From Hygrocybe punicea (Eukaryota; Basidiomycota; Agaricomycetes; Agaricales; Hygrophoraceae), in contig OY744461.1 in assembly GCA_963556145.1 (NCBI GenBank), positions 5,082,891 to 5,146,890 of the forward strand: a DNA stretch of 64,000 nucleotides, given 5' to 3'. The position numbers and the translations under genes were made by a program. Positions 18,116-64,000 of the stretch are shown here, in pieces. The notes beneath the pieces are model-generated. The model saw nothing but the letters and a program-made list of their open reading frames with translations. It ran no database searches and had not been told where the DNA came from. The stretch's first letter is position 1. The number at the start of each line of letters is the position of its first letter.

Positions 18116-18117
18116 AA

Positions 18118-18440: not shown

Positions 18441-18499
18441 CAGTAGACCCAGTCATTTTGGTTAACCCAATCGCAGATATAGTTGCAAAAGGTAGGTAC

Positions 18500-20100: not shown

Positions 20101-20123
20101 CCCACTCTGCCTGCATGTATTTA

Positions 20124-20935: not shown

Positions 20936-20937
20936 TA

Positions 20938-23623: not shown

Positions 23624-24285
23624 TGTACATCCCACCCCTCCGCCCTCGTCTCCTCCCTCTTCCTCTGCCTCTCCCACTCCCACTCCCTGCTGCCCCTCCC
23701 TCCTCCCTTCCATCCTGCCCTTCACCCTCCCTTCTCCCACTCCCACTCCCACTCCGTTCTCCCACACCCACACCCATACCCATACCCACACCCACACCCA
23801 CACCCACTTCCAGTCCCAGTCCCAGTCCCAGTCCCAGTCCCACTCACACCTACCTTCCTCCCCCCCAACCCCTTTATTATTTAATTATGTATTTGGATAA
23901 AATAATAATTAATTTGATATGTCCATTCTAAGTAATAGTGAGTGTTTGTGTACTGATTCCAATTGAGATTTGAGTAATATTAAATAAAAAAGGCACAAAA
24001 TTCCAAGTGGGGTAATTTCTGGTTGTTATATATAAAAATTTTGTTTGGGAATAAGTAGCTCATGTGAGAGATAAAGCTAAGAGTGAGAGATTGTGCATTT
24101 TCAAAATAAGAATGTTGTAATTTTGGTATTATCTGTGCTTTGAATTATTGCATTTGAAATTATATTACATTTGAAGAAACTGAGACATTTTCTTTACCGG
24201 ATATTGCATTTTCTGAATAAATATTGGCTTGAGTTGTTGTGAGCTCTGGCAATGTTGTCAACATTAAATACATGCAGGCAGAGTG
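23624..24285. other. CCCACACCCA microsatellite and AT-rich segment, right arm
   Basis: A pyrimidine-rich CCCACACCCA/CCCAGTCC microsatellite runs to about 23870. AT-rich sequence follows to about 24240, inverted relative to 20938-21344. The uninterrupted empty site of the 812-bp MITE lies near 24250-24270. Confidence 0.6.
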
Positions 24286-24289
24286 GGAT

Positions 24290-26240: not shown

Positions 26241-26302
26241 TGTGTACCTACCTTTTGCAACTATATCTGTGATTGGGTTAACCAAAACGACTGGGTCTAC
26301 TG

Positions 26303-29300: not shown

Positions 29301-29634
29301 CAAAGTTTTCGACTTCGAACCCGGTAACCTCGTTCTCGTCTGAAATTCACGTATCGAAATGTCTCTCGATCGTAAAGCAAAACCGCGGTACTTTGGACCC
29401 ATGGTTGTCGTCAGGAAAACAGAAGGCGGATCCTACATACTTGCCGAACTCGACGGTGCGGTTTCTAAATCTCGATTTGCCGCTTTCCGAGTCGTACCCT
29501 ACCACGCCCGCTCAAAAATATCGATACTGTTGGATGACTTCTTACAATACCCCGATGCCGACGATACCAATTCAAACGATCTTGATGATCCGATGTACCC
29601 GCCCTCTATAGACTCCTCACCCGACGACGATTAA
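26303..29634 (+). pseudogene. Pol: reverse transcriptase, RNase H and integrase, two stops
   Basis: This is the replication enzyme of the gypsy element. Order: linker; RT at about 26700-27500 with RWFCVLKKDGKSLRIV and the catalytic YMDD (PYMDDIPVKG, about 27150-27180); RNase H at about 27640-28010 (AVDSSVLGVGF, SKLELYGLFRAL, VEVDAKY); integrase with an HHCC finger (HDSLGH ... CHQC, about 28470-28590); and a DDE core (YVDTMF, VTDNGKPF, NGPVERRHLD). The frame is continuous to 29634 except for TGA at 28315-28317 (RDLT-stop-PANFTDEE) and TGA at 29341-29343 (NLVLV-stop-NSRIEMS). Both are single C-to-T steps from CGA (Arg). The C-terminal segment PRYFGPMVV is chromo-barrel-like. Inactive as read. 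Confidence 0.92.
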
Positions 29635-29842
29635 GCATTTCATTTATATTCTGTCCACGTTATACCCCCATTTTATTTAGTTCCTCTTAGTTTTCTAACG
29701 ATATGACAAATGATGCGAATAGTCCTATGTCTTCGGGAGCCGATCGGCTTTCCTTAGCTGGGTGAACAAGCTGACACATCTTTTATGTACACAATATATT
29801 TTTTTATATATACAATGGGCTCGTTATTTTTATATATATATT
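29635..29842. other. Pol 3' end spacer, convergent with the antisense gene
   Basis: Short AT-rich spacer between the pol stop and the antisense gene stop, with TATATATA runs near 29790-29845. Both genes would need to terminate here. Confidence 0.4.
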
Positions 29843-31239
29843 TTACAGGCGGCCGGTCTCGTAATCCCGCTTCAACATCGCCAACCTTGAGGTCGACCGT
29901 TCGAGATCGACGCGAAGCCGCTGGAACTCTTGACCGAAGTGGACGAGGTGACGGTTGACATTGGTGCCCAGGGCTCCCAGCTCCTCCGTAAGGACCGCTA
30001 GCCGCGCCGACACTTGCTCGTAATTCTCCATCGTCAAAACGAACGGGTTCGCTGCTGAGGCCGTCCTAAGCCTTTTCGTCGGCCGCTCTTCCTCCGACTC
30101 CTCCTCGTCTTCGTCATCGTCCTCAACCGACTCCACGTCCTCGACCCGTGGTTTGCTCATTGAGGCCCGGGCAGGCCTACCGCGGATGGGCTTTGTCGTG
30201 AACGACAACGGCTTCCTTGTGCCGACCGCGACCTCTTTGCCCTTTCCGGTATCCACCTTGCACCGACCCCCGCCCGTCCGGTGTGTAGCGTTAGTACATC
30301 TCTTCTTCAGCCTCCGGCATCGTTCGCACACGTAGCCCGTGACGCCTCGACACGCCTCTTGCGCCTTGACGCAGTTGGTGCAGGGTTGTAGGGGAAACGG
30401 CCCGGTGAACTGTTACCAGGATCAGTGACTAAAGAACAAATGAACCGACACAAGAACTCACCGTCGTACCAGCCAAGTCTCCGGTCTCTACGCCCGGCGT
30501 ATCTACGTCTTCTACATCGGCCGGTGTCTCTGGTGCCGGGTCGACGGGGCCTTCCTCTGGCTCAACTGCGGCTTCGCCTTCCGGAATCGACTTAGTCCTT
30601 GGTTCACCCGCGACTGATGCGTTTGCTTCAGCTCGCCGTTCTTCGCTGAGCTGCCGCTGATACGCGGCTCCATCCCTTTCAACCTGGTCCGCTTCTTGAT
30701 TCCAGCGCTGCTCGTGTTGTTCTATTCTAAGCCGCTCTTGCCTTTCCTCTGCCGCCTTTTGCCTTTTCTCCGCCTGCGCTCGTGCATTTGCCTCTGCCAT
30801 CCGTCTGGCCTCCTCTTCCCGTGTAGCCGCTTCTTCATCCACCCACCGTCTGGCTTCTTCCTTTTCCTGCCTCTCTCGGTCCGCCGCTTCTTTCAGCCAC
30901 TCTTCGACATCGTTGGCGTACAATTGGCGGTCGGCCCATAACGGTGGCATTACTGGCCTCGTACCACCAGCTCGGAGTTCCACGACGATTCCATTATAAG
31001 CACGCTGGCAGGACGACATGAGCTATCTTAGGACACACGTAGTCAATAAGGAAACTCACCAGCGCTTTCTTGCGGCCGCTTAACCATTGTTGGGCCATCC
31101 CCTCGTTGCCGTCCACCATCGTTACAAGGTCGTCGCTATGAAACACGGTGACCGCGTTGACGGCCTCTTCGTAGTCCGCCCAGACATTGGGTTCGATGCT
31201 TTCGACAAAGGTGAGGAAGTTGTCGTAGACTTGGGACAT
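29843..31239 (-). CDS. Antisense accessory gene with Zn2Cys6-like cluster
   Basis: A three-exon gene on the strand opposite to pol, between pol and the 3' LTR. Exon 1, 31239-31060, starts MSQVYDNFLTFVESIEP. Exon 2, 31004-30462, is a long charged Glu/Arg/Ala coiled coil (EERQERLRIEQHEQRW). Exon 3, 30409-29843. All junctions are in phase 0 with GTGAGT donors and CTGCCAG or TAACAG acceptors, giving about 429 residues and no stop. Exon 3 opens with cysteines spaced C-X2-C-X6-C-X7-C-X2-C-X6-C, the signature of fungal Zn2Cys6 DNA-binding domains. However, the basic run (RRLKKR) lies between Cys5 and Cys6, not Cys2 and Cys3. An acidic tract (DDDEDEEESEEE), a basic TKRLR and a C-terminal helix follow. 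Role unknown; DNA or RNA binding is inferred. Confidence 0.75.
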
Positions 31240-31409
31240 TGTGAACGTGTGATTGTGTAGAGGAAAGGTCGGATCAACAACGAGAATTTTTTTATTTTTT
31301 TTACTTTGCCGTTGTTTGGCCGCTCACGTGATTGGCCACATTCGCGACCCGCATTCGGAGACCCCATATTCTCGACCACGGATGGTCTCTATTAGAAGAC
31401 CCAAGGAGA
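31240..31409. promoter_or_regulatory. Promoter side of the antisense gene and polypurine tract
   Basis: It contains a long A/T stretch on the antisense upstream side (about 31290-31305). The purine-rich AGAAGACCCAAGGAGA abuts the 3' LTR at 31410, where a polypurine tract for plus-strand priming is expected. Confidence 0.45.
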
Positions 31410-32203
31410 TGTAGAGGGTCCTCGACCTTCTGAGGCCATAACATCGATATCTAGAGAATCCGCTCGAACCCGACGTCTCTAGCAATCTACGTTCGAACCC
31501 GACGCAACCTGATGCAACCCGATGCATACCGACTAGCACGGCCGCTCACGTACCTGGTCGGTCTATCTCGTAAACTCGCGGAACTTCAAATATCAAAGAT
31601 AGATCTCATCGGACTGGGATCCCGACATCGGACTTGCCTTATTCACGCCTAGCGTCTCCCTTATGGGGATATAGTAAAGTATATTGCATCTTTTACGGTT
31701 TTTTATATCTTCCACCCATTTTCCCTGTCATCGTCGCCTCACAACGCTCTTCCTACTTCCGCATTTTTATTCTCCTTTGTCTCCTCTCATCGGCCAAGGA
31801 CTCTCGTCCGAAACTAGGTACAGAAATTTGTAGTATAAAAACGGTGCCCAAGCGCCGTCTCAAAATAAGAAACCAGTTCCCCCGTTTCCTCTCTCTGAGA
31901 ATTAGTCTCTCAGTAAAATCCATCGCACATATTACTCGTCGGTTTCCTCGACGCTCTCCCCGTCCTTCTACCGTCCTAATCTCTACGTTTCTCGTCACCC
32001 GACACCCGACCCGCCGTACCCGACATCGTCGGCTTCGTCAGCTTCGATCGGTCTCGATAGATTTCAGTAGTTTACTCGGCGGCTTCTTACCTTTTATATC
32101 CTATTATCTTACTGAAGCTTGTTAGACTATTCTTAGTCACTTCTACGCTGACCCCACAGGCTTAGGATTATTATTCCACAGCCACCCCGACCTCGCCTTT
32201 ACA
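31410..32203 (+). repeat. 3' LTR of the gypsy element
   Basis: 794 bp, same ends and length as the 5' LTR with about eight differences. The host helicase frame resumes directly after it. Confidence 0.93.
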
Positions 32204-46847: not shown

Positions 46848-49293
46848 TAGGAACACAACCATGGCATCATTTGAGGGAACAACTGAGGATTATTGTAGAT
46901 GGATTGTGGATCACTCTCATGTCCAATTGCCAAGATCTTTTTATTATCCATTAAATGTTTGAGAGCAATCGCTTTGATAGCTTTGATACTTTTGGAAGAG
47001 TACTCTTTACCGGTCAGACCATGAACTACAAATGGACACATGCCAGTGTCAGTTCCTTCTTCCTCTTCCATGTAATTAACAGCAGTAGCTTCTGGGTTTT
47101 TGTTAACAAATGATTGTCTATACTCCACCACAACTGGTATGTCATTCTCAGGATATTGCTTCAAGTTTTCTTCTGAAATCTTCAAGTCAAAATAGTCATA
47201 ATCATTCAGTTTTAACCAGTTTAAAGCAGTGGCAACTTTGTTTCTCCTAACCAGCAGTGGTGTATGCTCAAAATCAGATTTTGTAGGCTTACATGATCCA
47301 GTATAAATAAATGCTAGCATTTCATCCAACTCATCAACAGGTGGGGGTAAAATGTCATAAACATTCGGAGTTGGATTGGCAAATGTAATGGCATTTGCAC
47401 TCATTTTGTGCATTCCTGAAGAAACTCGAACTATGCATCTATTGTGTCTCACTCTAGCAATTAACAGTTGTTCTGCATAAGACAAATTAGTTAATTCATC
47501 TGGAATCTTTCCAAGCAATAAACCATTTGCCAGAGACATAGTTGGGCATTTTCCTTTGACCAAAGACTTGCGACACTTCTTGCAAATGCCATGGAGATCT
47601 CCACTTATTATAGGGCTATCTGTAGATTGTATGGGATCATTTACTGAGAAGCACTCTGTTTGAGTTATACCAGCTTGTCTCAAACAACTCAAATTCAAGT
47701 CTGTGTATCTTTGCAATTGAGAGACTGGAGTCAATCTTCCACAGACAGCACAACCAGATTTAATAAATTTGTTGGGAGAGGTATCACCACAAAATCCTGA
47801 AATAATAGTGTGTTGCAATTTTGCTGAAGGTGAATCAGGAGGGAATTGAATATTATCTCTGTATGTCTGAACAGCAATCTGATTTGTTTGTGCATGCTGC
47901 TCAGGGTGGTTCATGGTATGTCTTCTAACTGCATTTAATGTGTGCTGCAGATGCTTGTCAAGATGATCAACTTTGAACTTTGTAACAGCTGCAAGGTTTT
48001 GTATTGCATGCCTCTCAGGATGTTTTAGATGATATTTCTGCATAGATGTTGTTTGGCATGCTTGTCTGGATTTCCACTCTGAAATCTTTGTACAGCTGAC
48101 AGATTTTGTTTGGCATGCCTATCAGGACATTCATTGTGACATTTCTGCACAGCTGCTAGATTTTGTTGTGCACATTCATCAGGATGTTGTGCTTTAAACC
48201 TATTGACTGCTCTGCTGTGTGAGGTTTTCTTGTGCATTGCAATTGCTTCTTCATCAATAAATTCAACGATTGATACAAATTCAGGACAGTTGGAGCACAC
48301 ATAATTTTGTATTGCCATTTGAATTGATCCCTGCTTCATTTTTGAGTGGACAAGAATGCTATGATGAGCCGCAATTACTTTCAAATTGGCAATGGTCAAC
48401 TTTGGAATCAACAGTTCAAATGGGTGATTTACAATTACAAGTGACTTTTCAGATGATGATTCCAATGAGAGGGCTTCATTTTTTGGCATGTAAGAGTGGA
48501 ATTTACATTTAGCTGCATCCATACTGGCATTGTTATTGGTTGAAGCAGGCATTAGTTCATGAAATGAGAATATATTTGCTTTGCCTCCACCAATGCATTC
48601 AATATCAATGTTAGGATTAAAATGTATATTTTCAGACTTGAAAATGTCAAATAATTTCGAAGTTTGATTGCAAATATATTGAGCAGACACTTGACAACCT
48701 AGGTAATGATACAGAACCAAGAAGAAAAACAGAATGGCTCCATTGGCTAATATTGGTTGTTTTGTCACATATTTCAAGTAAGCTCTGAAGTCATGTTTTC
48801 TGAACAGATTCTGTTGAAGTTTCAACTTAATATACACACATTTATTAGCAATGCTAGGTGTACAATGATACACAGCAAGCAAATCAAACATGTTTAAAAA
48901 GACTCTGGTATATAGTTCAAAAAGAAAAGAGATATGAGCTGATTGACAACTAGAAAGAACAAATTCATTACTGTTGTGGATACTTGTGATTGTTTCAGAG
49001 CTTTGTGATGAGAAAGAAGAGGTGGACTGGAGACCAATATGATGAACAGGGACTAAACTTGGTAAATAAGTGGGATTTTCATTTTCATACTTTGGCAAAT
49101 TGTCTTTATAAAAATTCAAAGTAACAGGGCATAGAATGACATTTTGTATGACAGAGACAGTTGGTGTGACAGGGACATTTTGTATGACATTTGCAGGAGG
49201 CACAAGGCAAATCCCAGTGACAGCACATTGTACCCAAGACATTGCAATGATAAAAATCATAAGACATTGTGACATAGATGACATTTTTAACAT
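46848..49293 (-). pseudogene. Helitron C Rep N-terminal gene, truncated by Helitron B
   Basis: A more distant Rep relative. 46848-48043 contains GFCGDTSPNKFIKSGCAVCG, GICKKCRK, LLIARVRHNRCIVRVSSG and NNPQLFPQMMPW. It is cut at WLCSY by the 5' end of Helitron B, so the HUH motif is absent. 48025-49293 is the upstream part in another frame: the two overlap at AKQHLCRNII/MQKYHLKHPER, which indicates an indel. Notable is a run of about eight 15-16-residue units of the form HPDxHAxQNLAAVQKF between about 47880 and 48210, absent from Helitrons A and B. An NYVCSNCPEF zinc-ligand patch precedes it. The remainder of the gene is not in the window. Confidence 0.8.
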
Positions 49294-49652
49294 TTTTGTG
49301 AACAGGTTTATAGTTTTTGGAAAATAAAAGCTAGAGAATAATATGGATATGTCAAATATATCTGGAGAAGATCAATAAACAACATACCAATACAAATTCC
49401 AGCACATAGAGCAGTAAAAATCGAAAAAATCCACAAAATTTTGCATTTTAAGACTATATATGGAAATATTATGTCAGCATGTGATCTTAAATGGTAAGAC
49501 ATTCATACCTGAGCCAGGAAAGATTCACTGTAAACCTGTAGGTTAAGAAATGACTTTATACAATCTAAAAAGATGAAAAAATGTGAAATTTCCACATACT
49601 TTGAATGTTGACAGGGAGATTGGCTATCAAATGATATAGGCTTGTTCTAAAA
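49294..49652. other. Upstream flank of the Helitron C gene
   Basis: AT-rich sequence with no supported gene. Confidence 0.35.
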
Positions 49653-49668
49653 GGCTCCCCGGGGAGCC
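49653..49668. repeat. 16-bp perfect palindrome
   Basis: GGCTCCCCGGGGAGCC, flanked by CTAAAA and ACAAAAATTTTC, sits at an abrupt change from AT-rich to GC-rich sequence. It may be an element terminus or a regulatory site; no partner copy was seen. Confidence 0.4.
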
Positions 49669-50094
49669 ACAAAAATTTTCTTATATAGGGGGGAGGAGCC
49701 AGGGGCAAATGGCGCCCCATATTATACAATCGCGCTGTGAATCTCAGTATTTTTAATCAAGATTAACTTAGATACACGATTCGAGCCTAGACAATTACGT
49801 TGGCTGAGTGATTTGAATAGAACTATATTTGGCTCGACAACTTTCTCTACTAGGCAAAAGCCTCCTTCAACTGTAGGGATGGCTTCGGGATGTCAAACAA
49901 CAGTATGTAGCATTGGATGGGTATGCTAGAGGGTCAGGGTAGGTGAAAAAAGGAGCTGAAGGTATAGTGATGTGGCAAAATGAGAGGTCCTAAATGGCGC
50001 TGGTGGATGTTTGAACATGGCAGAGGGGACTTGTTCTGGGGGACAAAGGGGAACAGGAGGCTCTGGGTGCTGAACAAGGGTTGCGTGGGGGGTT

Positions 50095-50480
50095 GTCCAA
50101 ACACTGTGGGGCTGGGAATAGTGGAAAATGTGGGCCGCGCAATGGTGAAATGATGGGGTGTCTGAACACAGCGGCAGGGACTCATTTGGGGAGACGAGGG
50201 GGAATGGGGGCTCAGGTGGAATGTGGGAGCATGGGATCGAATGAAGGTGCTTGGGACAAACACTCTGGGGCTGGGAATAGTGAAAAATGTGGGCCATGCA
50301 ATGGTGACATGATGGGGCATTTGATCACAGTGGCAGGTGCTTGTTTGGGGAGATGAAGGGGAATGTTGGCTCTGGAGGGTGGAACATGGGAGCATGGGGT
50401 CGAATAGAGGTGCATGAGGTCGGGGATGGCAAAATATGGGGATTGCACTATGGTGATATGGTACATCACGCTGGAGCTCT
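50095..50480. repeat. ~158-bp tandem repeat
   Basis: TGGGGCTGGGAATAGTG at about 50107 and about 50265, then GTCGGGGATGGCAAAATATG near 50420, each followed by GGGCC/GGGGATTGCRCAATGGTG and TGATGGGG. About 2.5-3 units. Frames through it on both strands are treated as shadows. Confidence 0.7.
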
Positions 50481-50789
50481 AAAAACAATGTAGAGGGGCT
50501 TCATTTAGGACAACAAAGGGGAATGGAGGGTCCTGAAGTGGTGAACAAGGGTCTGCAAGGTTGATCGCAGGTGTGTGAGGTCAGGGATGGTCTAGGTGGG
50601 CACACCTTACAGTGTATCTTGTCCATGAAACATGGGTTAGCCGAGATGGACAATTCCCACTTGAAGTGGGCCAGCTGACCTCGGCCGACCAATATCTTTT
50701 CCCAAGGCAGATGGCTTGGCCAAGGCATACAGCTGGCCAGCCCGAGTGGGTTGGCCAACTGGGGGATATTTCCCGCAACCTAATGGGGG

Positions 50790-50940
50790 TTTCAGCTTGC
50801 CATCAGACATGGGTTGGCCGACCCTCTGCCATATATTGGCTGCCCATCAGACGTGGGTTGGCCAACCATCTGCCATATAATGCCTGCCCATCAGGCATGG
50901 GTTGGCTGACCCTCTGCCATATAATGGCCAGACAACCATT
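50790..50940. repeat. ~45-bp tandem repeat
   Basis: CCATCAGRCRTGGGTTGGCC followed by RACCCTCTGCCATATAATGG recurs three times (about 50800, 50847 and 50890). Confidence 0.75.
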
Positions 50941-51026
50941 ATCTGTTGGCAGAGGGTTATGATCCAGTTGGTCAGGTATATATATCAGTTGATTCTCATG
51001 GGCTATATCTTCTGTGATAATATTTA

Positions 51027-54000
51027 TTAATCCATCTTGTTGACAAATGCAGTTTGTGCTTGTGCTATCATCTTTGTCCACATCACGATTTGTTTTTCTG
51101 CACAACAGATGTGACCCCTCAGTCCCAGACCAACTTTGTCACGACGTGCTTCCCATCGCACTTTCTGGTGTTGCAACCATCGAACAGTGTTACCCATTTC
51201 TGACTTGATGCTTTGCAATTCTTCAGACCACTGATCATATCTGGCCTTTCCATGGAGCCAGTTTACACGATACATTGTATAGCAGTGAGATCTTCCATGA
51301 ATTGCTGTAGGAGAATCATTTACCTTCCTGCATCCAATCGTTGTCCCCAGTCTTATTCCTATCTTTCATCTGCCAGATCCAGGACAGCTTGTGACTCTTC
51401 TGGCCCACTCTATTCTCCTCAAGCATATCACCACTCATCTTGAGATCCTCCTGCCTCAGTACTTTGAAACCGTCCAGCATTTCTACACTTCCCCCTAGAT
51501 TGACCAATGCCCAACGAGCCTGCCTGTAGCTTGTGGCATATTTGCCAACCTTTTGCTGGACAGCATGCACATCATCCCATGCTCGAGTCTTCTTCTTCTG
51601 ACTATTTGCTCCATGGACAGAGGTTTGAAAAATTACCATTTTCTCACCCAGTGTTATCCTCAAATTTTCCAAACTGTCATTTGCTTGCCCCACCCTGAGT
51701 TCCACCTCCTGAGCAGCCAAATTTTCCAAACTCAGCCAAGCACATTCCTCAATTCCCAAGGTAGATGGCATTGTAAGTCAACAGTTTTCAGGCCATTCTG
51801 TGACATTGTCATCATCTTCTTCATCTACCTTGCCCTCCTCATCCAAATCCATGATCCAATCATCAGCATCCGATTCACAATTCACCAAATTACAGTCATC
51901 CACTTGTTCACCCAGTATTCTGTGCATTTTTCTGTGGAACGAATTGATTCGAGACTGAAGTCTATTTTGACGATCCTGGCTATGGTGATGATATGTATTG
52001 ATGATATGCCTGTGAATTACGTACACATTCCTACCAACTTCTTCCAATTGGAATCTCTCATGAGGTCATCCAGGATCTCACGTTGTTGGGATTTTGACAT
52101 GAAACGAATAGCACTGGCAATCTTGTTGATGATAGCCCAGAGTGTCTCCAAAATTTTGCCATCCTGCTGACCGGCCCCATGAACGAAGTTGAGACTGAAC
52201 AGGGCAAAACACTTGGTAACATGTGCACCAAGATGAAACTTGCCCACAGCCCCAATGATCTCGAGCGCCTCAGGGAGAGTGAGGTGGTCAGAATCGGAAA
52301 CCCTTTTAGCAAAATTGATGAGCCAACGGCAGATGATATCATATTCCACCAGTGCTTCCTTGATACCACTGTGGCACAGCCTATTGAGAGCATTGCATAT
52401 TGAATAATCAACATTCATGTGTCTGATGCAGGCTGTTTAATAAATTTGTGATGATTCATAGCTTAAAATACATGACTGACCATTCACCCTTCTGGAAGTC
52501 GACGACACTGTGCGGTACAAAGCAACCATGCTTCACATAAGCACATGCACCAATGCCAGTAGCATATAAGTGATGATGATTGGCATTTGCTTGGTTGACA
52601 GCCTTGTGATTGGAGCACTGTGACCTCTGATACAGGATCATTGATTTAGCATTCACAAAATTCACAATTCGATAAATACCTCTTTGGACTTCAAGGAAGC
52701 TGCCAGATGAGCATGATAAGGTGCATCCTCAACCATATAGCCTTGTCCATCAATAAGCCCAACGTTGTCATCAGGCTTCCGCATGTTAATCTGCTCAGGT
52801 TTGAAATTCCCGTTGACGATGATGCTGGGCCTGTAAAGCCACCTGTTTCCGTGTTTGGTGAGGAACTACATGAAACCTGATCAGAATGTCCCACTGATGA
52901 GGTCTATCCATCCAATCCTGGGGAAGATTTATCCCGGGCTGGGGGCATGCAGGGCAAAACAATGCAAGATTGCCATTACCAGGCTCCCTCTCAGTCTCAT
53001 GCCCAAAGCCGAATCGTTTCTTGAGGTTTAAGTATCGCCACTGTCTTGAGACCCTCATCAGTTCATGATAATGATCCTGAACAACATAGCTCAGTACTTT
53101 GTCCTGTATGTACTCTGTAACCAAAGAAGTATATCATGAACTGGCAATGTATCTGGAAATGCATTGCAAGACAGTCTCCTTAACTTGTTGTAGAAGTTGT
53201 TTGCAGACATTTTGCACTCCATCGAATCAATGTAAAAGTAATCCAGCAGCTGGAAAGTGAACGCTGATGATGGCCTTTTTGCCGTTGCAGGATATAAACC
53301 CATACAAAGCAGTTGAATGTCTCGAGCTGGGGCATCTTCGCACGAGCACCATCAGATTCAACATCGGTAAATTCCAGTCGTGTGAGTGACGGTGATGATA
53401 TCTTCCTTGGCGTGAACATCCAAACCCGGATCCAAATCATCTTCCTCACCAACACCAGACATGAGAACATCATGCAGATACATATCTTCAACACTTTGCT
53501 CTGGTTGAACATTTTGATATGTGGGACAATTGCTTCCACCATGGCCAAGAGCCATGACTAGCCCAATTTCATGAAGGTCATGAGGTAAAAAACATCTGCC
53601 ATTCCATATCTCAATTCTGTGGAATTGATGATGCTTGTGTGCCTGCAAGCAACAACATTGGCAGAAGGAAAGGCACCCATAGCAATCAGGGCAACGAAAG
53701 GAGATATCAGCCATGAGACACGTTTGACATGTAGCATCAGAAGGTGCCACCTCAGATGATAAGAGTTCGGAGAGGTATTGCTTGTGAATGATTTTCCAGG
53801 CCTCCATTTGGTCATTCTGAGTCTGAACAACAGCAAATTAAGATCAAACAGAACAGGTAAATATTTTATTAACCTGTCCACTTTTACGATTCCTCTGTCT
53901 CACAGGTTCCTCCTCATCCAAATTCGACGTGGAGGCAAATGGAGTCTCTTCAGTCTGTTGTGTCCATTTTATGGGACTGGGGGGTCTGATAACGGGCCGG

Positions 54001-54107
54001 GCCTTGACTGTCTTTCCACCTTGTTTGGTCAGCACCACTGTAAATTCCACCTCTCTCGCAAACTCTTTCTTTTTGCCTGAGCGTGATGTAACTTTTGATT
54101 TCACCAT
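51027..54107 (-). CDS. KDZ transposase with CxC2 domain
   Basis: Predicted cut-and-paste transposase of the KDZ (Kyakuja-Dileera-Zisupton) class, common in mushrooms. Multi-exon, minus strand. Exon 1 starts MVKSKVTSRSGKKKEFAREV at 54107. The CxC2 zinc cluster (CQTC, RCPDCYGC, CQCCCLQAHKHHQFHRI) is at about 53590-53740. AFTFQLLDYFYIDSMECKMS follows (about 53215-53280). The first catalytic block reads SIIVNGNFKPEQ (about 52795-52830), where Asp is expected at the N before GNF. CSNHKAVNQAN and YATGIGACAYVKHGCF follow, then the second block VEYDIICRWLINFAKRV and VHGAGQQDGKILETLWAIIN (52100-52350). The C-terminal helical region (ELRVGQANDSLENLRITLG, ENRVGQKSHKLSWIW) ends at 51027. I see no stop once introns are placed. 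The D-to-N change would abolish activity if correctly aligned. Confidence 0.85.
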
Positions 54108-54236
54108 GGATGCAACAACTTGCTGAAAATGGGAAATGACGGGAAAGACCATGCCATTTTATAAAGAAAAACACATGGCAAAACACATGGCAAACAATAA
54201 GACAATAAAAGTTATGTAACAAGGCTGGCAGTAATG

Positions 54237-55710
54237 TCACAAATCCCATTCACTATCAGAATCAGAGACAATCATTTCGATGTCCTGCCAACCTCGCACC
54301 AATTTAACTTCACCAGGTGAACTAGGAATACCAACATCTTCTGAGTCCAATGTTATCCCATCAACCCAATTTCGAATTGCTTGCTTACACAAGGCTTGTT
54401 GGAGTTCTCCACGCAAAGTTGCAATTTGTCTGGGTTGCCAATCAACGGTTGCACTGACTCCTCCTGTTGTGCCATGCTTCAGGAGTTCTTCTAACATGCC
54501 TTGAGGATTTTTGAGGAAGATCCGAAGGAAGTGAATCAAATAAATACCACAGTCATCAAAGTTAGGTTATTCCAGCACCTAAAACAATGTTTGTCAATTA
54601 GCCACCCAACCGAGGTGGAAATGGTTAACTGTGGGTGTGATTGTCGTGATGGGAGCCAGCTTTGTGACCTTCCAAGTGTGCTTTGCAACAGAGGCAAGCC
54701 AGTCATGCAGACGTGAGACATCATTTTCATGATCACCAGGTGGTAGAGAATCGAGCACACAGGTTATACTGCATCAAGAATAAGCAGGAAACATGTCAAC
54801 CTGTGTTGGAAATGCATGTGTGCAGTCCATCCTGCCGGTTTTCAGAAAGACATCCTCCAGGATTGATGACGATGATCAAATACCAGTGGGATCTGTAGCT
54901 GAACTCAACTCTGTCTGCATAGAAATGCACAAAACGACATGACTCACCCAGTGGGAACAGGAAATACCAAATATCTGCATGCAAATATGTCATAGGCCTT
55001 TGTCCACCGCTTCACACTCCTCACACCATTCTTCCTGATGTCTCCATGAGACAGAATGACCTTACTGGCAAAACAAAATGGGGCAGACCTTAGTTTCTCC
55101 ATAAAAAATGTTATAAATATGTGAGTGTCGTCATATAATTGCGGTTGAGACTTTGATGCTTCATGCAGCGCATAGCTTGGGCAAACATTGAGGTACTCAG
55201 AAAGGACACAGACAAGATACTCACTACGTTTCAAAGTTGATCAACTCATCATCCAACCAAGCATGGTCCAGATGTTGAAAAGAAATCCATGGCACTGCCC
55301 CCTGAGTTGAATATTTGGCAACAATGTGTGTCCCTTCAATGCTGGAATGCATCAGGACCATGCATTGTCACAAAAATAATGAGACTTACAGAACTGGTTC
55401 AGGTATCTCATTTAAAGACACCATTTTGCAAGTGGTTTCGATGTCATTTCTTTCACAATAACCATGTAGTGGGGACAGCAATATGATGTGGTCACTCACA
55501 GAAAATAGGTTATCCTTTCATCACCCAGTGTGCTCGACAACAGACTGAGCAGATCATCATATAATTCCGAACTCCATGACTTGTGCTCTGGGTCGAAATA
55601 GATGCCCACATGGTGCGTGGATATGATGGCTACATACTCATTGCACCATGAACGCAATAGGTAGGACGTGGAACCATACCATTGTTGTCTCTGCCGAGGA
55701 ACTTGCAAGA
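54237..55710 (-). pseudogene. Ulp1/C48-type SUMO-protease-like gene
   Basis: Cysteine protease of the Ulp1 fold, which in eukaryotes removes SUMO from proteins. Multi-exon, minus strand. Upstream segment YGSTSYLLRSWCNEYVAII to GDERITYFL (55496-55708). The core starts with DHAWLDDELINF (about 55230-55265). ACRYLVFPVPTG joins through a 55-nt GTGAGT...CTACAG intron to SHWYLIIVINPG, giving the catalytic His. CVLDSLPPGD gives the catalytic Asp. A 51-nt intron leads to the nucleophile box PNFDDCGIYLIHFL, giving the Cys. The codon before it is TAA (54567-54569) where Gln (CAA) is expected. This Gln forms the oxyanion hole, so one C-to-T change both stops translation and removes an active-site residue. 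One junction, after CISNTG, could not be resolved. A helical tail ends SDSDSEWDL at 54237. The 5' end is uncertain. Confidence 0.75.
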
Positions 55711-56760
55711 GGCGTTGTCCATAGGACGTGATGCAAACAAATTGAACACCAAACCATGGTTGTCCTCAGCATTGGGTTTTGTCACCTAATGACTTCCCTC
55801 AGGATATGCTGGGGAGGATATGTATAATGCAACTCGCCTGACAATTGTGGATGTCACGTTCCACCCAAATCATTAGCAGGATGGAGGATTCACCTGCGAT
55901 GGTGCATTTGACACTTGGGGATGCGATAAGTGGTGGTTGTGGACTGTGTGGAGAATTACCTTGACCCAGAACATTCAAACATAGCCCAGGAAGTCCCATC
56001 CTTGACTTTGTGATAACTGTTATGGCCTAACATTGCGAATAGGATGGGAAGGGAGAGCAATAGCATCTTTTGAGGAATGTCGCAAAATTTTCTTGACCCA
56101 CGTGATGGTGTTGAGATCACACATGTGACCAGTCACACCTTAGCAATGGTAACTGTCACAGGTGTGATGTCACGTCTGGGCACCCAGACGTGATGGTCAC
56201 AGGCGTGACCATCCATGACATTGAGATGTGAAGTCACACAAACCATATTCAAGTCATGAAGGGAGTTTGCGACTGGAGATTAGCCAGGCTAGGTGCATTT
56301 CAAAGTGCTTCCACACAGACTGCACTATTTGTTGCGTAGTCATACAAGTCGTTGTAGAACCAATTCATGCACCTATTTCATGTAGTCCCAATTTGGCCAT
56401 TCATTGCTCAGTCATCAACAATATAGTGGACACCACATTGATTGCAAGGTATGTTGCTGCAGCTTGATTGACTGAAAGTTAACCTGCTGTGCAATACATC
56501 TGATGAGTTTTCTTCTGTTTCATAGCATGTGCATTAAATCCATCCACATATTTTCTTGTGGCCGCCACACCACCCGAATGATATTCTGCGATATGGCCAC
56601 AAGACGTGCCAATGGGAGACGTGTGCCATGCAGACAATGTGCCTGAATGGTGGCAGGCAACAAATATGTGGTGCGGGCGGACATGCTCGTATCTCCATGG
56701 ACTTTTCCACTCACCAACACATTAGGTGAGCTTCTCATGCTCTGACCACTCCGGTCTTAA
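55711..56760. other. Interval upstream of the Ulp1-like gene
   Basis: Possible N-terminal exons on the minus strand (55799-55999; 56520-56738, with HGTRLPLARLVAISQNIIRV) show protein-like composition but no family. Between them (56095-56240) is a cluster of TGTGAC/GTCACA words with an 11-bp inverted repeat (TCACGTCTGGG-CA-CCCAGACGTGA, 56170-56193). Confidence 0.4.
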
Positions 56761-57386
56761 CTTTTAATGATCAGGTTGAGCGATATATGCACTGTGAATT
56801 CGAATTTATTGTTACAAAAGCAACCTGTTGTTTAAGGTCACAGGAGACGTATGAACAATTTTTGCAATCATCCGAGATTTAGATGTCCCTCAAATATTGA
56901 AATTGTTTGTAATGTTGTGCTATGTCCAAATGTATGGTAAACTATAACATTGTCTAACAGTCATATTTCTATGGCAGCTAATAGTGGCAAAATTGTATCA
57001 GATTTGTTCTCCACAATGACAAACATATTGGAATGCATATATGTAAATGTTGGGACATTGGGGAAACGGCTTTAATCATCTGTCTCCTGTATGTCCCAAC
57101 ATTTATTGTCAATGCCACAATTTAGCAGATGAATGTCACGGTCACATTGTGTGACCATCACCTCATGTGATGACCCCATGTGATTTCAACAAAACGCATT
57201 GGTCACATGTATACAAACAAACATTGGTCGCTGTTTAAATTTTTTTTGTCATCTTGTGTCCCCTTCTCATCATCCAAACCAGAATCCCCGATTGTTGTGC
57301 CGGGCAACAATTGGGTATTCTGGTATGGACCACCCTTTTCTCGTGCCCTCACCAGCAATGTGAGTGTTTCTAGTGTTTGCCTCATT
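56761..57386. other. AT-rich spacer between divergent genes
   Basis: Lies between minus-strand and plus-strand groups. It has GTCACGGTCACATTGTGTGACC near 57134 and CATGTGAT words, similar to the 56.1-kb cluster. No gene is supported; the 57180-57425 frame has no motif. Confidence 0.35.
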
Positions 57387-57645
57387 GTTCACGGGAGTTA
57401 TCTAGGCCGCCGTTCTCTCCGTTGACACAGGTGAGTGATATATGTGTGTGTACATTATTACAAGTCAGTACTTCATCCCTACATGCCCCATCGCTCACAT
57501 TTTACCCCTTATTGTTCATGGTAGTTATCTAGGCTGCCGGTCTCTCCATTGACACAGGTGAGTGATATGTGTGTTCATTATGACAAGTAAGTACTTCGTC
57601 CCTATGTGCCCCATGGCTCACATTTTACCCCCTTCACCATCATAC
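57387..57645. repeat. ~129-bp tandem duplication
   Basis: GGGAGTTATCTAGGCCGCC, GTTGACACAGGTGAGTGATAT and CCCCATCGCTCACATTTTACC at 57387-57515 recur with about ten changes at 57517-57645. Confidence 0.75.
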
Positions 57646-57996
57646 CATTCGGCATCTCAGTATGCCAAACCGTTGGTGGCCGGTCCTTAGAAATGAGCGC
57701 TAGCTACCATGGGTCCCCAATAAGGAATTCAGGGAGGGTGAATCCATCTGAATTCCATGCTGGGCAACCTACTTTGTAGCAGGCCTGGTGGTGTCGATCC
57801 CAACCAGCCAGGCAGGTTTTGCTTACATTTGGCATCCTTCTTTTGCTGATAATGCACCCCAACAGGTTTGTGTTAAAATTCAACGCTTCATGATTCACTT
57901 ATCCCGGCATTCTTATTTACGGATTTGTTTCTTTCTGCTTGATTTTTCTTTGTTTCAGAAAAATTTCACTTTGCAGGTTTCAATCTTTTCACGTTG

Positions 57997-58047
57997 ATCT
58001 GTCTTGATCAACAAGGAGAGAGCTCCTCCTTTGAGATCAAGACAGAT
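57997..58047. repeat. Nested perfect hairpin
   Basis: ATCTGTCTTGATC (57997-58009) pairs with GATCAAGACAGAT (58035-58047). Inside it AAGGAG (58013-58018) pairs with CTCCTT (58026-58031). It lies 3 bases inside TTG/TGA on each side. It could be a foldback terminus or a transcript hairpin. Confidence 0.6.
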
Positions 58048-58529
58048 TGATAATGGTTTCCTTGTCTACCTTTCCTCATTTTTGACTTTGAATATTATTG
58101 GATTATATTACAATTGCCTTGTATGTATATCAAAATCGTCCACTGAGACTATTATCGCAATTTGGCACATTTAACCCTAACCTTAAGTCAACCATAAATG
58201 CCTCGAGGCTGCCATGCACAATGCGCTGGTATTTTTTCTTTCTCACCACACCATGTATGCCGATAGACTCCCCTTGCCCACTCCCAAAGATACATCCAAT
58301 GAAGATTTCTGTAAAGATTTCAATAATGATGACCAGAACAAGATTGAGGCAGTTCCATACCCATCAAGAAAAAACACCTGTGGATCAGGCTACGACAGAT
58401 ACTGTCAAACACAACATCGTATTATAGGAAGAGAGGTATGCGTTTGCCGAAAACTCCTGCAGAGGAAAACAACCAGCTGAGGTGAGATCTGTGCTGTTTC
58501 AATGGCATATCTGATGTCTTGTGTAGGTC

Positions 58530-59814
58530 TCGCCTAATGATGTTGAGGGACCAGCTGCCACTCAGCAGTGATTTGGGTCAATCGGTCTCTGAGGCTGAAC
58601 TGGAGAGAGTTCTCCTTACTGTAGCAGCTGCGATCTTAAACCCCAGTATGTGATGGTCAATAAATTCATTATGCAGGAACCAATGAATTTCGTGAAAGTA
58701 ATGGTGCCCCTGGATGCCAATAGACTTGCAAATTGAGTCAAGAATATCAAAGAAGCATCTGTCGCTGACAATAAACATTTCCTCAAATTTTTCGAGACAA
58801 TTTGTATTGGACATGTGAATGAACCAGCGATGGTGGTCGACATATATGGTTCTATTTTGGTCTGGTATCTACCTGATATTTTGACTCAAACTCGTGTAGT
58901 AAGTCCCCTACATCTCAGGATGGCTGATTTGTGACTGGTACTCACTGTGGCACTCACTGTGGCACACAGGAGGAATTGAATATGAGTACAGAAATGATCA
59001 CAGAAATGCTCGCGGTTTCCTATGCCGACTCAGTCAAAAAACTGGAGAAAGGGCAAGGTCTCTCCTGGAGAAAAGACCCTGATTTGTTCTTTCTGCCTAC
59101 GAATCCACGCTTCCACCCAGGGTCTGTGAACTTTTCAGCAGCATGGTTCGCTCAGGGTAGAGAGGTAGCTAAAATGTTCGGTCATCTATTCAGAATGAGT
59201 TCCTTGACATTCTTTGTTTTCAGCAGCTGAATGACCAGTTAATCACTTCCACGATGCTCCGAAACTATGAAGCTACCATGTGGATGGCTGTGGTCCAACC
59301 CAGTGAGACCATCCTCAACGAAATTACAGCATTGACTCATCGTGCATTGTACAAGGCAGGACTCATGGCATTGACAAAAATCGCGAAGAATGACATGCTT
59401 GACAAAGTCAACACACACAAGAATGCTGAAGAATGGCCATCGGTTTACACTGGCATCAGTGTAATCCTGAACAGGCTTACCACTTGTCACCGAGATTCTG
59501 GTGGGTGTCCAGAATGGTACGATTTGCTTGCAAGCTGTGGGACGCATACCAAAGCAGAGCTCACCATCCCCGAAATAGGTGCTACCTTCTCTTACTCACC
59601 TGGCACCATCATTGAAATCTGCGGAAAAGTTCTCAGTCACAATGTAGATGGATGGGAGGGTGGCAAATGGATATGCATGGCCCATTACATGAGGAACATG
59701 GTACATGATCATCTTGAGATAGACAAGCCAATCTGGAGCAGACACAATGTGTTTGCAAGGGAGATGAATGCAAACTTTTGGGCCTCACAGGGCTGGAGTT
59801 GGCCAACTACATGA
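58530..59814 (+). pseudogene. TET/JBP-family 2-oxoglutarate/Fe(II) dioxygenase
   Basis: Members of this family oxidise 5-methylcytosine or thymine in DNA. Inferred exons: one containing MLRDQLPLSSDLGQSVSEAE (from about 58537); a second with IYGSILVWYLPDILTQTR (to about 58890); a third, about 58970-59168, EELNMSTEMITEMLAVSYAD to WFAQGRE; and 59224-59814 after a GTAGCT...TTTTCAG intron. The last exon carries the core: VYTGISVILNRLTTCHRDSG with the iron ligands H and D of HRD at 59488-59496, EWYDLLASCG, SYSPGTIIEICGKVLSH with the distal His at 59638-59640, and GGKWICMAHYMRNMV with an Arg that may bind 2-oxoglutarate. The catalytic exon is intact. The second exon has TGA at 58734-58736 (RLAN-stop-VKNIKEA), one C-to-T step from Arg, unless splicing skips it. 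It lies divergent to the KDZ transposase. Confidence 0.75.
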
Positions 59815-60040
59815 ATAAATAATTTTGTATCGAAAACTACCACATTTCCCAGCATAATGACTTTGTACAATTACTGTCAACACTTGAATCTGGATGTCAT
59901 GTGATCCCAACTGGCGGTTAGCCACTCCAACATGTGATCACCACAAATGGTGATGTGTCCTTTTTTTTTTCACCTTTTGCCCATCATCACTGAGCTTAGC
60001 CTCTCCTCTGGAACTGTTCTGAAATTTCATATTTTACAAA
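59815..60040. promoter_or_regulatory. Spacer between TET/JBP-like and JmjC-like genes
   Basis: Contains AATAAATAA just after the TET stop, a plausible polyadenylation signal, and ATGTGATCCC/ATGTGATCACC words. The downstream gene's promoter would be here. Confidence 0.35.
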
Positions 60041-63000
60041 TGTCATCATCTTCTAGCACCTCCCAACCCTCGTCTGGCCCTCCAGATGCTTCTAGGATAT
60101 CTGGCTGTCTATTCCGGAGCCAGAATGTGTTCCAGGATTTCCCTTGGGTCAATGGCATGCCAGTCTCTGAAGACTCTTGAGAAGGTGATCATTACCCTGA
60201 TAGGCAATCAGACCACCCTAGGCAACACACCATCCACCTTAGCAGTCATGGTGAATCGACTTCTACAGTTGTACAAGGACACTAATTTTCTGTTAGGCCC
60301 TAGCGAAGCAATTAGATCATGCAAATCCCCTGGGTGACAAACACCAGGTGTTCAAGAATACCTGTCAGCTGATGGCTCTGCAATGCATGATGTCACGAGG
60401 TGGAATAACTCATACCGAAACGACCTCCTATTAGCGGCCCACTCAATCCTTCGCTATACCTTGCTGGATAAGCTCATGGATGCTGTTGGGTTGCCCCGTC
60501 ATCCAAGTTTCAAAGTAATTGGGCAGTCTGCCAAACCAGAGATGAGCGAGAAATTCACAAGGGCAAGTTCGCTATTCACATTGACATGATGTTTTACAAT
60601 GATCTTGCAGCTTTACAAAAGCCTCAAAGATTGGAGTAAGCCGATCATGAAACTTCGTACCATGTGCAAACGTATAATGATTACGGAACCTGCCCAAGAG
60701 GTGGATGGTGTTTCAGCTGTGGCTCTGCAGCAGAAATTGCCATCCAGCATGGACAGCATCCCCATCTTTGCAGTCACACTCCCTGAAAACTTGTCACCAG
60801 CCCAAAAAGAGGTAGAAATGAGCCTCCGGATGCTTTACCATGCATCAGTCAACCTCAAATCTTCAGAAATCGACCAGGTCCTCCTCAATATGGAGCTTCT
60901 GGCATACGCTTTTGCTTGGTTTGGTCAGGTATGTGACGAATCTTCAACGACAATTATGTTAAACATATTTATGCAAACAGGGCAACTCTTGCGTCGACCG
61001 TGAGTTCACAACATGGGTGGAGGTATTACAGAGGTTGGACTTATATTATAATCACATAAACATTTTTGCCAAATAAATATCTCTGCCTGGATTCAGGAAA
61101 TCAAAGGGCATTGGTCTACCATTGCAAGACTCATTTCTCGACTCCCTCACCAAGAAATCTTTTGGAGGAATGATATATGAGCGGATGAGAAACCTGTGTC
61201 ACCTGAGCCTCACCCTCTCACCCATCCTAGCTCTTCTCCCACGACACTTCAATCACGAGATTCACTCACGGCCATCTCTCTTGGCAGTAAGTGCATTACC
61301 TGTGTTGTGGTTGATATAAATAATAACAAATAGGTCACGTTTGCCTTGGGTAATGCATGGCCTCCATTCCTTGCTGCAACCAAGAGGGCCCTTTGGAGGG
61401 CCATTACACGAATATGTTTAGGATCTTCGGCGATGGAGGAGTTGAATGTGTTCCTCCGGGAATATGACCTGTTGGAAGAAGGTTTCCAGGAAGGCGAGTA
61501 GGACCTCAGTTGGTTTTGTTTCGACGGTATGATTGTCCAATGCTTCTATATATTACTTATCACCAGGACTCACACAAGATGGTTATCCAAAGATGCCCAA
61601 GTGCAGGATCTTGTGAACTCCACAAGTCAGCTAACTGTTGAATCAAAACCAGCGGATGGCAAAGGACCTCAGGAAAACAAGGCAGAGAATGAGAAGTCGG
61701 CAGATGGAAAGCCTGTGTCCAGCGATGACGAACCACTTCTTTTGAAAATTGCCAGGAAGAAGGGGAGTGGAAAATCGAAAGCAGCCAAAACCACTGGACA
61801 GGGCTCCATGTTGACAAGGAGCCAGGTAAAATTATTGGGCCAGGGCAGTGATTCAGCAAAAGGCAAGGGGAAGCCAAAAGCAGAAAAAATCGTGGTTGCA
61901 CCTGGGAAGTCATATCGGAAGAAGAGGAGCTAAACTGGCCCATCAATAAGAAGTCATCCCAAGTCGAAGAAACGCAATGATCATGAGGATGAGGATGAGG
62001 ATGAGGATGAGGATGACTACCAGAAGATGCCAGAGAAAGTCAACATCATTATTGACCTTACTGGAGATGTGAGTTATTACAGAAGATGTATGTCACTTGT
62101 TAACAGCAAATCTTTTGACAGGATTATGGAGAACCGGATTTACTCAGCCGTCCAGTGCCATGGTTTGTGTCCTGTTGTTCAATAACATGCCGACCCACTC
62201 ATGATTCACACAAGAGAGCAGCAGAGGGCGTTCATCTCACCTTGTATGACGGCGACCCCCTGCATGAACCTGTTCAGCATGTGCACTATTCACCATCTGT
62301 GGTTGTATGTTGATGTTTGATTTTTTGTACCGCTTCGTCGTTGACTATTCTTGATACAGGCAAAAGTGGAACATGCATTGTTGCGGGAGATATATGACCT
62401 GGTCCGATCGACTTATGTTGATGGGCTTCCTCCACATTGGTTGCCTAGCGCACAAGAACAAACATATGATCCTCAAGCATCGTGTGTCTTTGTGGTGGAA
62501 TGGAACACCTTCAAGTTGATGGATGCTGCCACAATTCAAGGAATATTTCATCATCGTCACATCCTTATCCTCAATTCTCCTGTAGAGATGGTGGAATTTG
62601 ATAGGGAAGGTTTGGAGTCTTTGGGGTCTTTGTCCTCCATTCATTCAGTGCAAGGTACATTGCTGGGTCACCATTTGGGCATGAATATTGACCTGCCTTG
62701 GTTAGTCGCTGAATTGCGATTAGTGGCTGACATCAAGAATATGAACAAACCTGGCACATTGGAAACATTATATCAAGTTTCGATTGACCCCAACAATGAA
62801 TGGGTTTTCAACTTCCTTGACCTTCCTATGGGTCATATGACATTGGACCCACCTCCAAAGTTTCGGTGAGTGACCGGGTTTCGAACATGGAACATATCAT
62901 TTACCTGTCTATATGGCAAAAGGTCGCTTGCGTCATCCGAGGTTGCTTGGCATGAAACCCACGGCCGATGGGGGTTTATCCATGAGCAGCCTTTGAACGA

Positions 63001-63963
63001 CGATTTGGCTTGGGGAATGGCGGTGACAGCTTGTGCCATTTCTTGGACACACATAGACAATGATGGCTTTGGCATGGTGGTTATTGTCAGGACTGGTGCA
63101 AAGTACTGGGTCCTGATGAGGCCTCGAAGGGACATCGAATGGGATTGCAAAGCTGGCAATCTTGCCACTAACAAGGCCTATCCTCAGGAGTGGCAGCCGA
63201 GCAAACATAGTGGGAAAGGCTTGTGGGAAGCAGAAGGAGTACTGCTCATGAAGGGTTTGGTGCTGTAAGTGGGAATATATTCTGTGACGACTCGGATGTA
63301 TGCTGAAACACACAGTTACATGAGGCCATGCACCCCGCATTATGTCCTAGGTGTGGAGCACTCCATTGTGAATGGGCATCATCTCTATGCGAATACGGGA
63401 TACCTGTTATGGGATTATCCATACATTCGTGATGAGTCATTCCATCACAAACGCAGAGCACAATGTGACACACACATTTCTGCAGCAACCCCTCACCGTG
63501 TGGATTGACTACTTCATGGGAAACCATGAATCATCATGTGAGCTACTTTGGACAATGTTTTCAATTTGCCCCAATGCTAAATGCTCACTCCACAGCGACT
63601 GCCTTCACAAGGTCTCATATCCCTGATATTGCAACTGAAGATGGCTTCCTCAATGTGGTGATGGTAGGAAATTATCTCGAGCTTGCCAATATCATTAACA
63701 GGATGTCCTACAACCACACCATGACAGCTGACATTCGCGAGGAGCAGAATATTGCCCGGTGCAGATATAGACATTTCCAAACATGGTTTGCGGAACATTT
63801 CGTTGTCTTGATGGAAGAACACTGGATCAGTTCCTCATACATTTTTAAATGCAGTCTTCTGGAGTTGTCTGCAGCAATTTTTGGGTATAAATTGGACAAG
63901 GATTGGGTTGTGAAGGCACCCCCATATTGCACAGCGAAAGCTGTTGAGCTGGCGGTCCACTGA
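60041..63963 (+). pseudogene. Large JmjC-like 2-oxoglutarate/Fe(II) protein, 3' end frameshifted
   Basis: A multi-exon plus-strand gene. The proposed start, MSSSSSTSQPSSGPPDASR at 60041, is uncertain. A helical N-terminal region spans about 60380-61500 (HDVTRWNNSYRNDLLLAAHS; VTFALGNAWPPFLAATKRAL). A Lys/Ser-rich linker runs from about 61560-61930 and an acidic DEDEDEDEDD tract near 61990. NIIIDLTGD (62042-62068) has the form of a SUMO-interacting motif. The fold follows: HHRHILILNSPVEMVEFD (about 62550), WTHIDNDGFG with iron ligands H and D at 63050-63058, TGAKYWVLMRPRRD, then a GTAAGT intron, and YMRPCTPHYVLG with the distal His at 63338-63340. After HHLYAN the sense continues in another frame (IRDTCYGIIHTFVMSHSITN) and again in a third (IPDIATEDGFLNVVMVGNYL), so two frameshifts or unusual splices break the C-terminal region. 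The substrate cannot be told. Confidence 0.65.
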
Positions 63964-64000
63964 TATTTCAAGAATGATTGGCCAGATTTGTTCCCCAAGC

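Follow-up and report, generated by a model that had tools for sequence, protein, structure and literature searches.

KDZ transposons that carry a TET gene reportedly go back to a founding report by Iyer et al. in 2014. Passages of Kojima 2025 (PMC12730594) establish such TET-bearing KDZ (Kyakuja) transposons in Agaricomycetes, describe two Laccaria Kyakuja families with 5'-CA..TG-3' ends and no terminal inverted repeats (TIRs), and state that TET transposons encode no further modification protein and that TET-positive Harbinger families carry a third, unnamed protein. In plants, VANDAL/KIU Mutator-like transposons combine the anti-silencing gene VANC with a conserved Ulp1 domain, according to passages of PMC13317346. 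Here we analysed a 64,000-nucleotide stretch of the Hygrocybe punicea contig OY744461.1 (hereafter the window), where a preliminary description had noted a KDZ transposase gene, a Ulp1/C48 peptidase gene (C48), a TET/JBP dioxygenase gene (TET) and a JmjC-like gene (JMJ) at 51-64 kb. The four genes proved to be real. It is almost certain that they belong, together with a fifth gene (gene 5), to one KDZ (CxC2) DNA transposon, about 18-22 kb long and of autonomous type, because common termini and 7-bp duplications enclose the whole set and its layout is conserved. The best explanation is probably that this single transposon carries a cassette directed against several layers of silencing.

The boundaries of the element were read from other copies in the 92.2-Mb host genome, whose contigs were labelled C1 onward. 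Among the best 40 of 64 candidates, the TET segment had nine full-length or nearly full-length matches elsewhere (89-95% identity), one partial match (93%) and a further 29 matches at 74-75%. When five further copies were aligned with their flanks, three spanned 50.6-64.0 kb of the window, interrupted by insertions and in a single copy by an inversion, and the other two covered only 50.9-62.5 kb and 54.5-62.6 kb; identity to the window was mostly 92-96%, with a few pieces at 86-91%. The left end reads CACACCTTACAG and the right end, read inwards, GAGCCCTTTCAG; next to these comes an inverted stretch common to both, and a whole element runs CACACCTTACAG...CTGAAAGGGCTC, that is, with imperfect TIRs and a 3' end in CTC. 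The preliminary description had reported no shared terminal repeats, since the window stops short of the right end and so hid them; other copies revealed them. Extended patterns of the two ends, with at most two mismatches, detected 138 left-type and 208 right-type ends genome-wide, compared with 0-1 for the reversed-pattern control. Ends were paired starting from the 69 exact left ends on C1-C34 among those listed (100 of the 138 left and 100 of the 208 right ends), C34 being the last contig that the listed right ends reached; exact left ends listed for contigs after C34 and three one-mismatch ends were not used. This yielded at least 41 end-to-end pairs, of which 20 enclosed all four genes, three enclosed some and 18 none. 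All 20 four-gene elements showed the gene order of the window (KDZ, C48, TET, JMJ), and 15 of them measured 17.9-22.0 kb. The flanks, read for these 20 elements, presented an exact 7-bp duplication in 13 cases and one with a single mismatch in four, hence at most one mismatch in 17 out of 20, while mismatched pairs used as control gave 0 exact duplications out of 380 and only 2 with at most one mismatch. None of the 20 elements showed a duplication of 5, 6, 8, 9 or 10 bp. The four genes thus constitute one element, as had been proposed by inference; the proposed check for TIRs with 8-9-bp duplications held for the repeats and for the enclosure of the set, the duplications being 7 bp long, and the possibility that each gene had unrelated boundaries of its own was not borne out, as the ends enclose all four.

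Other features of these copies deserve mention. The 18 pairs with common termini and none of the four gene matches span 2.6-25 kb and are probably non-autonomous relatives. In copy C3_4041, a palindromic 463-bp insertion (21551-22012), likely a small miniature inverted-repeat transposable element, breaks the right terminus. In copy C39_496, a stretch matching window positions 57723-61447 is inverted, splitting the JmjC-like gene; the other compared copies keep the window order.

The layout also recurs beyond the paired elements. Listed matches (the best 150 of 429, 40 of 64, 150 of 411 and 86 of 224 candidates scored) were collapsed into at least 73 JMJ, 67 C48 and 99 KDZ loci, their places being entered by hand. 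Among the matches listed, 37 of the 73 JMJ loci had TET, C48 and KDZ at the spacing and on the strands seen in the window, versus a mean of 0.16 and a maximum of 4 in 2000 trials of random placement, a uniform null that ignores the clustering of transposable elements (TEs). Within this genome, then, the four genes do co-occur elsewhere. At ten further JMJ loci a second arrangement was seen, TET and KDZ lying on the strand opposite JMJ and C48 giving no match, and at 12 loci TET, C48 and KDZ were all absent within 25 kb. Three JMJ subfamilies, A, B and C, were compared. Subfamily C, represented by C6:1636001-1647500 and other loci, has a rearranged gene order, KDZ and TET sharing one strand while JMJ and gene 5 occupy the other, with identities of 41% for JMJ and 33% for gene 5. 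Separately, comparison of a subfamily B copy (L048:1539-5855 / B 9208-10656) with C3_4041 revealed that KDZ is 88% identical between A and B, and the neighbouring C48 and TET 73-74%; such a sharp change suggests modular exchange between elements.

Profile searches, the check put forward in the preliminary description, confirmed three of the four genes and left the JmjC assignment below cut-off. The transposase matched KDZ (PF18758, E 2.4e-25) and CxC2 (PF18803, E 4e-22) in Pfam. Peptidase_C48 (PF02902) gave E 0.022 on a single exon and 4e-18 on the joined exons (66.5 bits against a cut-off of 20.7), and the best relatives in the PDB were SENP7 (1.6e-11), Ulp2 (3.7e-8) and SENP2 (7.2e-7). Motifs of the catalytic His, Asp and Cys (HW, LDSL and DCG) were recognised by eye, and the C-terminal tail is hydrophobic and then reads SDSDSE. 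The C48 assignment is made with confidence from these profile and motif data, and the genome holds at least 195 C48 matches. The same confidence applies to TET, which matched PF12851 (E 2.3e-11, 43.6 bits against a cut-off of 34.9) and whose best PDB relative was CcTet (5.9e-19), with which its HRD motif and distal His align. CcTet is a 5-methylcytosine (5mC) dioxygenase according to passages of Kojima 2025 (PMC12730594) and PMC11040006. A three-frame Pfam search of 49001-58500 (minus strand) and 56001-64000 (plus strand) returned only KDZ, CxC2, CxC1, C48 and Tet_JBP, with neither a Mutator-like (MULE) transposase nor VANC. Outside this genome, annotated proteins of Suillus, Pisolithus and Sparassis join CxC2, KDZ and Tet_JBP (P0127, P0147, P0151, P0166, P0188 and P0224); they are predicted to be gene fusions or fused gene models.

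The fourth gene is likely JmjC-like, as judged from its conserved residues and profile comparisons. Its splice model comprises 12 exons; the 11 introns measure 46-69 nt and have GT-AG ends apart from one with GC-AG, and the intron places recur in the diverged subfamily B, where 10 of the 11 (all but the sixth) have GT-AG ends. The pattern W-x-H-x-D-x-D-G-F...G-x-K-Y-W-V...R-P-x-T-x-H-Y-V is invariant in the three subfamilies (A, B, C), and comprises the HxD, KYW and distal PHYV/VHYV residues; in the alignment, the second and third sequences share 81% and 44% identity with the first, which mixes the window with C3_4041. In Pfam, the joined protein had no match at E<=1 and a 503-aa piece of subfamily C none at E<=10. 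On two short core fragments, from subfamilies C and B, JmjC_2 (PF08007) was the best (0.029) and the second (0.17) family, with 14.3 and 11.9 bits against a cut-off of 22, and Arm-DNA-bind_3 was about as weak on the same fragments (0.07 and 0.054). An hhalign comparison with an Escherichia coli RoxA profile aligned 35 columns and placed the distal His on the conserved PH motif of RoxA. The profile score was 29.1, versus at most 24.9 in 60 column shuffles, 13.9 for the reversed profile and 15.3 for the KDZ profile; the RoxA profile is narrow, because it was built from 13 of 120 listed relatives, all sharing 76% identity or more with E. coli RoxA. Between its N-terminal and cupin parts the protein carries VNIIIDLTGD (A), VNVIIDLTGD (B) or VIIIDDDSESE (C), which we take to belong to the SUMO-interacting type of motif (SIM); the surroundings of the C motif, read in an unspliced frame, are barely alignable.

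Gene 5 lies near the right end on the strand opposite JMJ in 20 out of 20 full elements, and also beside JMJ, there on the same strand, in subfamily C. It matched no Pfam family over cut-off and no PDB entry below E 0.3; a first reading by eye as HMG-like was dropped, since nothing supports it. At least 90 gene-5 loci were found in the genome. Distant relatives of gene 5 (25-28% identity) occur at at least eight places, among them C36:2368339, C8:1010777 and C3:2952621, 6-14 kb from a TET match and with no JMJ detected within 20 kb. Of the partners of TET, gene 5 may thus have the widest distribution.

In order to compare the subfamilies at the codon level, one subfamily B copy (C2:8146501-8166500) was used as reference for the subfamily A copies. 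The ratio of nonsynonymous to synonymous substitution rates (dN/dS) was 0.22-0.26 for JMJ and 0.11-0.16 for TET (six A copies each), 0.18-0.28 for KDZ (five copies) and 0.21-0.40 for C48 (five copies, 109-114 codons). Gene 5 gave 0.11 in one copy, at a dS of 2.2 that is near saturation, and a second copy was saturated. Values of 0.11-0.40 indicate that the genes were retained for as long as the element lineages remained alive, on a thin basis in the case of gene 5. Within subfamily A, most frames lacked a clear third-position excess, as in dead copies. dS itself differed strongly among genes (about 0.32-0.38 for KDZ, 0.55-0.70 for JMJ, 1.0-1.2 for TET and 0.9-1.6 for C48), which suggests that segments were exchanged between subfamilies. 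Transitions at CpG sites dominated the private changes of the subfamily A copies, with 365 of them, or 0.097 per site and copy, compared with 0.0081 for transitions at non-CpG C:G sites and 0.0039 at A:T sites. Each of the four single-base mismatches found among the target duplications was a CpG transition too. The window element had a CpG observed/expected ratio of 0.41, and copy B one of 0.65. This decay has the pattern expected from deamination of 5mC, as far as sequence comparison can indicate.

A mechanism consistent with these findings would be as follows. The KDZ transposase would cut and paste the whole unit, which the host would methylate at CpG and pack into SUMO-marked heterochromatin. 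TET would oxidise 5mC at and around the element; the SIM would draw the JmjC-like protein to SUMOylated chromatin, where it would oppose heterochromatin by demethylation or non-catalytically, like the fission-yeast Epe1; and the Ulp1 protein would deSUMOylate silencing factors or the transposase. The combined effect would be an element that stays expressible and mobile. We slightly favour the view that the accessory genes may act in this anti-silencing manner, while the chances are evenly balanced that the transposon carries a coordinated kit, with TET against DNA methylation, a SUMO-guided JmjC-like protein against heterochromatin, Ulp1 against SUMO and a fifth factor. The preliminary description had suggested a module able to edit DNA bases, chromatin and SUMO marks; this is plausible as a prediction and fits the purifying selection and the CpG decay, with a JmjC likeness that stays sub-threshold.

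The main rival also assumes one element, but has the accessory proteins serve transposition through assembly, target choice, repair or deSUMOylation of the transposase. The accessory genes do form one unit with the transposase, selection is seen on all of them, C48 adjoins the transposase gene on the same strand, and the sequence alone would fit both roles. Nevertheless, the kinship of TET with CcTet, which points to an action on 5mC, and the heavy CpG mutation load of the copies indicate that methylation is the problem being met, and we regard the service role as rather unlikely, if deserving of serious attention. A nested pile-up, in which unrelated transposons or genes landed side by side, would suit a TE-rich genome with nested insertions inside copies, the 12 listed JMJ loci without the other three genes and the three paired elements without duplication. 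It was rejected, and has next to no chance of being true, given the shared layout (37 of 73 listed loci versus 0.16 expected) and the common termini and 7-bp duplications around the full set in 17 out of 20 elements. It is also very unlikely that the accessory genes are host genes captured by read-through and dispensable to the element. The constraint between subfamilies A and B led us to reject such passengers as the main reading, and passengers would have decayed instead of persisting, as JMJ and gene 5 do in subfamily C, even though gene capture is known for DNA transposons and changes within subfamily A look near-neutral. Finally, the fourth gene could encode another cupin or an unrelated fold and no JmjC enzyme, as might be argued from the comparable weakness of Arm-DNA-bind_3 and from the failure of Pfam cut-offs, PDB searches, fold prediction and the RoxA alignment to single out a JmjC domain. 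We consider this unlikely, since JmjC_2 was the best or second family for both fragments, the RoxA score exceeded all shuffled and reversed controls, and the HxD, KYW and distal PHYV/VHYV residues are invariant.

Several observations weigh against an anti-silencing transposon of this composition. Three of the 20 paired elements showed no duplication, although two of these, longer than 40 kb, may have been wrongly joined. No C48 was present in subfamily C in the stretch read, which excluded the KDZ side, and a PF02902 search, inspected by eye, placed none near its loci; the SUMO protease is therefore not universal. The element is not alone in its CpG depletion, since ratios of 0.46-0.53 also occur at 1-8 and 32-48 kb of the window; the part at 16-32 kb is little depleted (0.83-0.99). 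The window copy is itself broken. JMJ stays below every curated JmjC cut-off in Pfam, its hhalign probability with RoxA is 6% with the HxD part unaligned, a PDB profile search with the JMJ alignment gave no match, and single-sequence folding of window positions 62360-63400 returned no reliable fold (predicted local distance difference test, pLDDT, of 30). The SUMO-interacting-type motif is short. Lastly, the JmjC part had no homologs at E<=0.001 among the annotated proteins of other species (5816 candidates). The database does reach mushrooms, because a KDZ control found 915 proteins, and among the 120 listed all named ones were from mushrooms. The element may be restricted to the H. punicea lineage or unannotated elsewhere.

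The window holds most of one decayed element, which starts at 50601 (C1:5133491, by the left-end pattern), not at 51027 as the preliminary description had it, and continues past the 3' edge of the window (Table 1). This copy is a relic, because a 477-bp stretch is missing from KDZ at 51977/51978, in-frame stops interrupt exons 7 and 12 of JMJ, whose exons 1, 2 and 11 also contain frameshifts, and the C48 frame has a stop immediately before the catalytic-Cys motif NFDDCG. The 477 bp are kept in four of the five compared copies, the fifth (C34_744) stopping short of the site, and many other copies in the genome keep open KDZ and C48 exons.

Table 1. Position of the element and its features in the window
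Feature	Position	Strand	Remark
7-bp flank left of the element	50594..50600		Start by left-end pattern; length from the duplications of other copies
Left terminus CACACCTTACAG and subterminal repeat region	50601..50928	+	Inverted counterpart at the right end in other copies
CxC2 KDZ transposase gene	51027..54107	-	Pfam; start of the gene placed by eye
KDZ domain, C-terminal half	52017-52436	-	PF18758
CxC2 domain	about 53358-53837	-	Within the KDZ transposase gene
Ulp1/SENP-type cysteine peptidase (C48), core exons	54237..55240	-	Peptidase_C48 on joined exons
C48 gene start	about 56.7 kb	-	Upstream of the core exons; approximate, by eye
TET/JBP dioxygenase gene	58187..59814	+	Catalytic domain 59173-59814 by PF12851; 5' part approximate, by eye
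JmjC-like gene (JMJ), 12 exons	60040..64000	+	Splice model; 3' end beyond the window
SUMO-interacting-type motif VNIIIDLTGD, end of exon 7	62039..62068	+	B: VNVIIDLTGD; C: EEPVIIIDDDSESE (unspliced frame)
Predicted Fe(II) ligands	HxD 63050-63058; distal His 63338-63340	+	Invariant in A, B and C; intron 63265-63315 between them

Two further observations concern the surroundings. Adjoining the element, at 48025-49371 on the minus strand, a 448-codon open frame with repeated 'NPDKHAKQNL'-like units looks like part of another mobile element. At 14001-32000, G+C rises to 0.44-0.57, versus 0.36-0.42 in the immediately adjoining stretches, and together with the weak CpG depletion at 16-32 kb this indicates that the window is made up of both gene-like blocks and blocks resembling decayed repeats.

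When set beside the described systems, the H. punicea element shares with the TET-positive Kyakuja transposons, as presented in passages of PMC12730594, the KDZ transposase, a TET/JBP protein of the CcTet kind, the 7-bp duplication, the mushroom host and the CA start. The TET/JBP-KDZ association in mushrooms on which the preliminary description relied is indeed established. It differs from the Laccaria families described there in its imperfect TIRs and in a 3' end of CTC in place of TG. It was therefore filed as KDZ and not as Kyakuja in the sense of Kojima 2025, whose elements are marked by 5'-CA..TG-3' ends and no TIRs. TIRs are not new in KDZ elements, because passages of PMC8290104 report a TIR motif for KDZ and Plavaka elements of Marasmius oreades. 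To the KDZ and TET of the Kyakuja type, as far as those passages describe it, our element adds C48, JmjC-like and gene 5. The main text of PMC12730594 makes no mention of SUMO, protease, Ulp, peptidase or JmjC, a search of the open full-text literature returned no paper pairing KDZ with JmjC or with Peptidase C48, and the protease passages looked into in the Kyakuja/Zisupton literature were unrelated (retrotransposon protease, protease inhibitors). Thus, the TET-bearing KDZ transposon itself is known, while we found no report of C48, a JmjC-like gene and gene 5 inside one. As described in passages of PMC12730594, the known TET transposons carry the transposase and TET, joined at most by one further protein that is left unnamed. 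SENP7, Ulp2 and SENP2 are the best solved relatives of C48, which is here borne on a transposon. A model for what JMJ might do is Epe1, a fission-yeast JmjC-domain factor that counteracts heterochromatin (passages of PMC7192584). The two would be alike as fungal JmjC-type proteins opposing heterochromatin with methylated lysine 9 of histone H3 (H3K9me), but Epe1 is encoded by a host gene off any transposon, and the likeness concerns the proposed role.

The plant VANDAL/KIU elements offer a parallel in strategy, as DNA transposons that likewise pair an anti-methylation function with a Ulp1-type domain. They differ in their MULE transposase, their plant host, VANC in the place of TET and, in the passages of PMC13317346, no JmjC-like partner, and the likeness would most likely be convergence. 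The gene set of our element suggests that selfish DNA is able to bring together functions aimed at more than one layer of silencing, and points to 5mC, a JmjC-sensitive mark and SUMO as the layers relevant in the host. The five protein queries, the termini and the 7-bp duplication could be used to annotate such elements in other mushrooms. If the coordinated kit were real, transposon silencing in fungi would include a SUMO-linked step, and the element would attack it in the way that plant KIU elements independently seem to do. This parallel with KIU/VANDAL suggests that a SUMO step could be a general part of transposon silencing.

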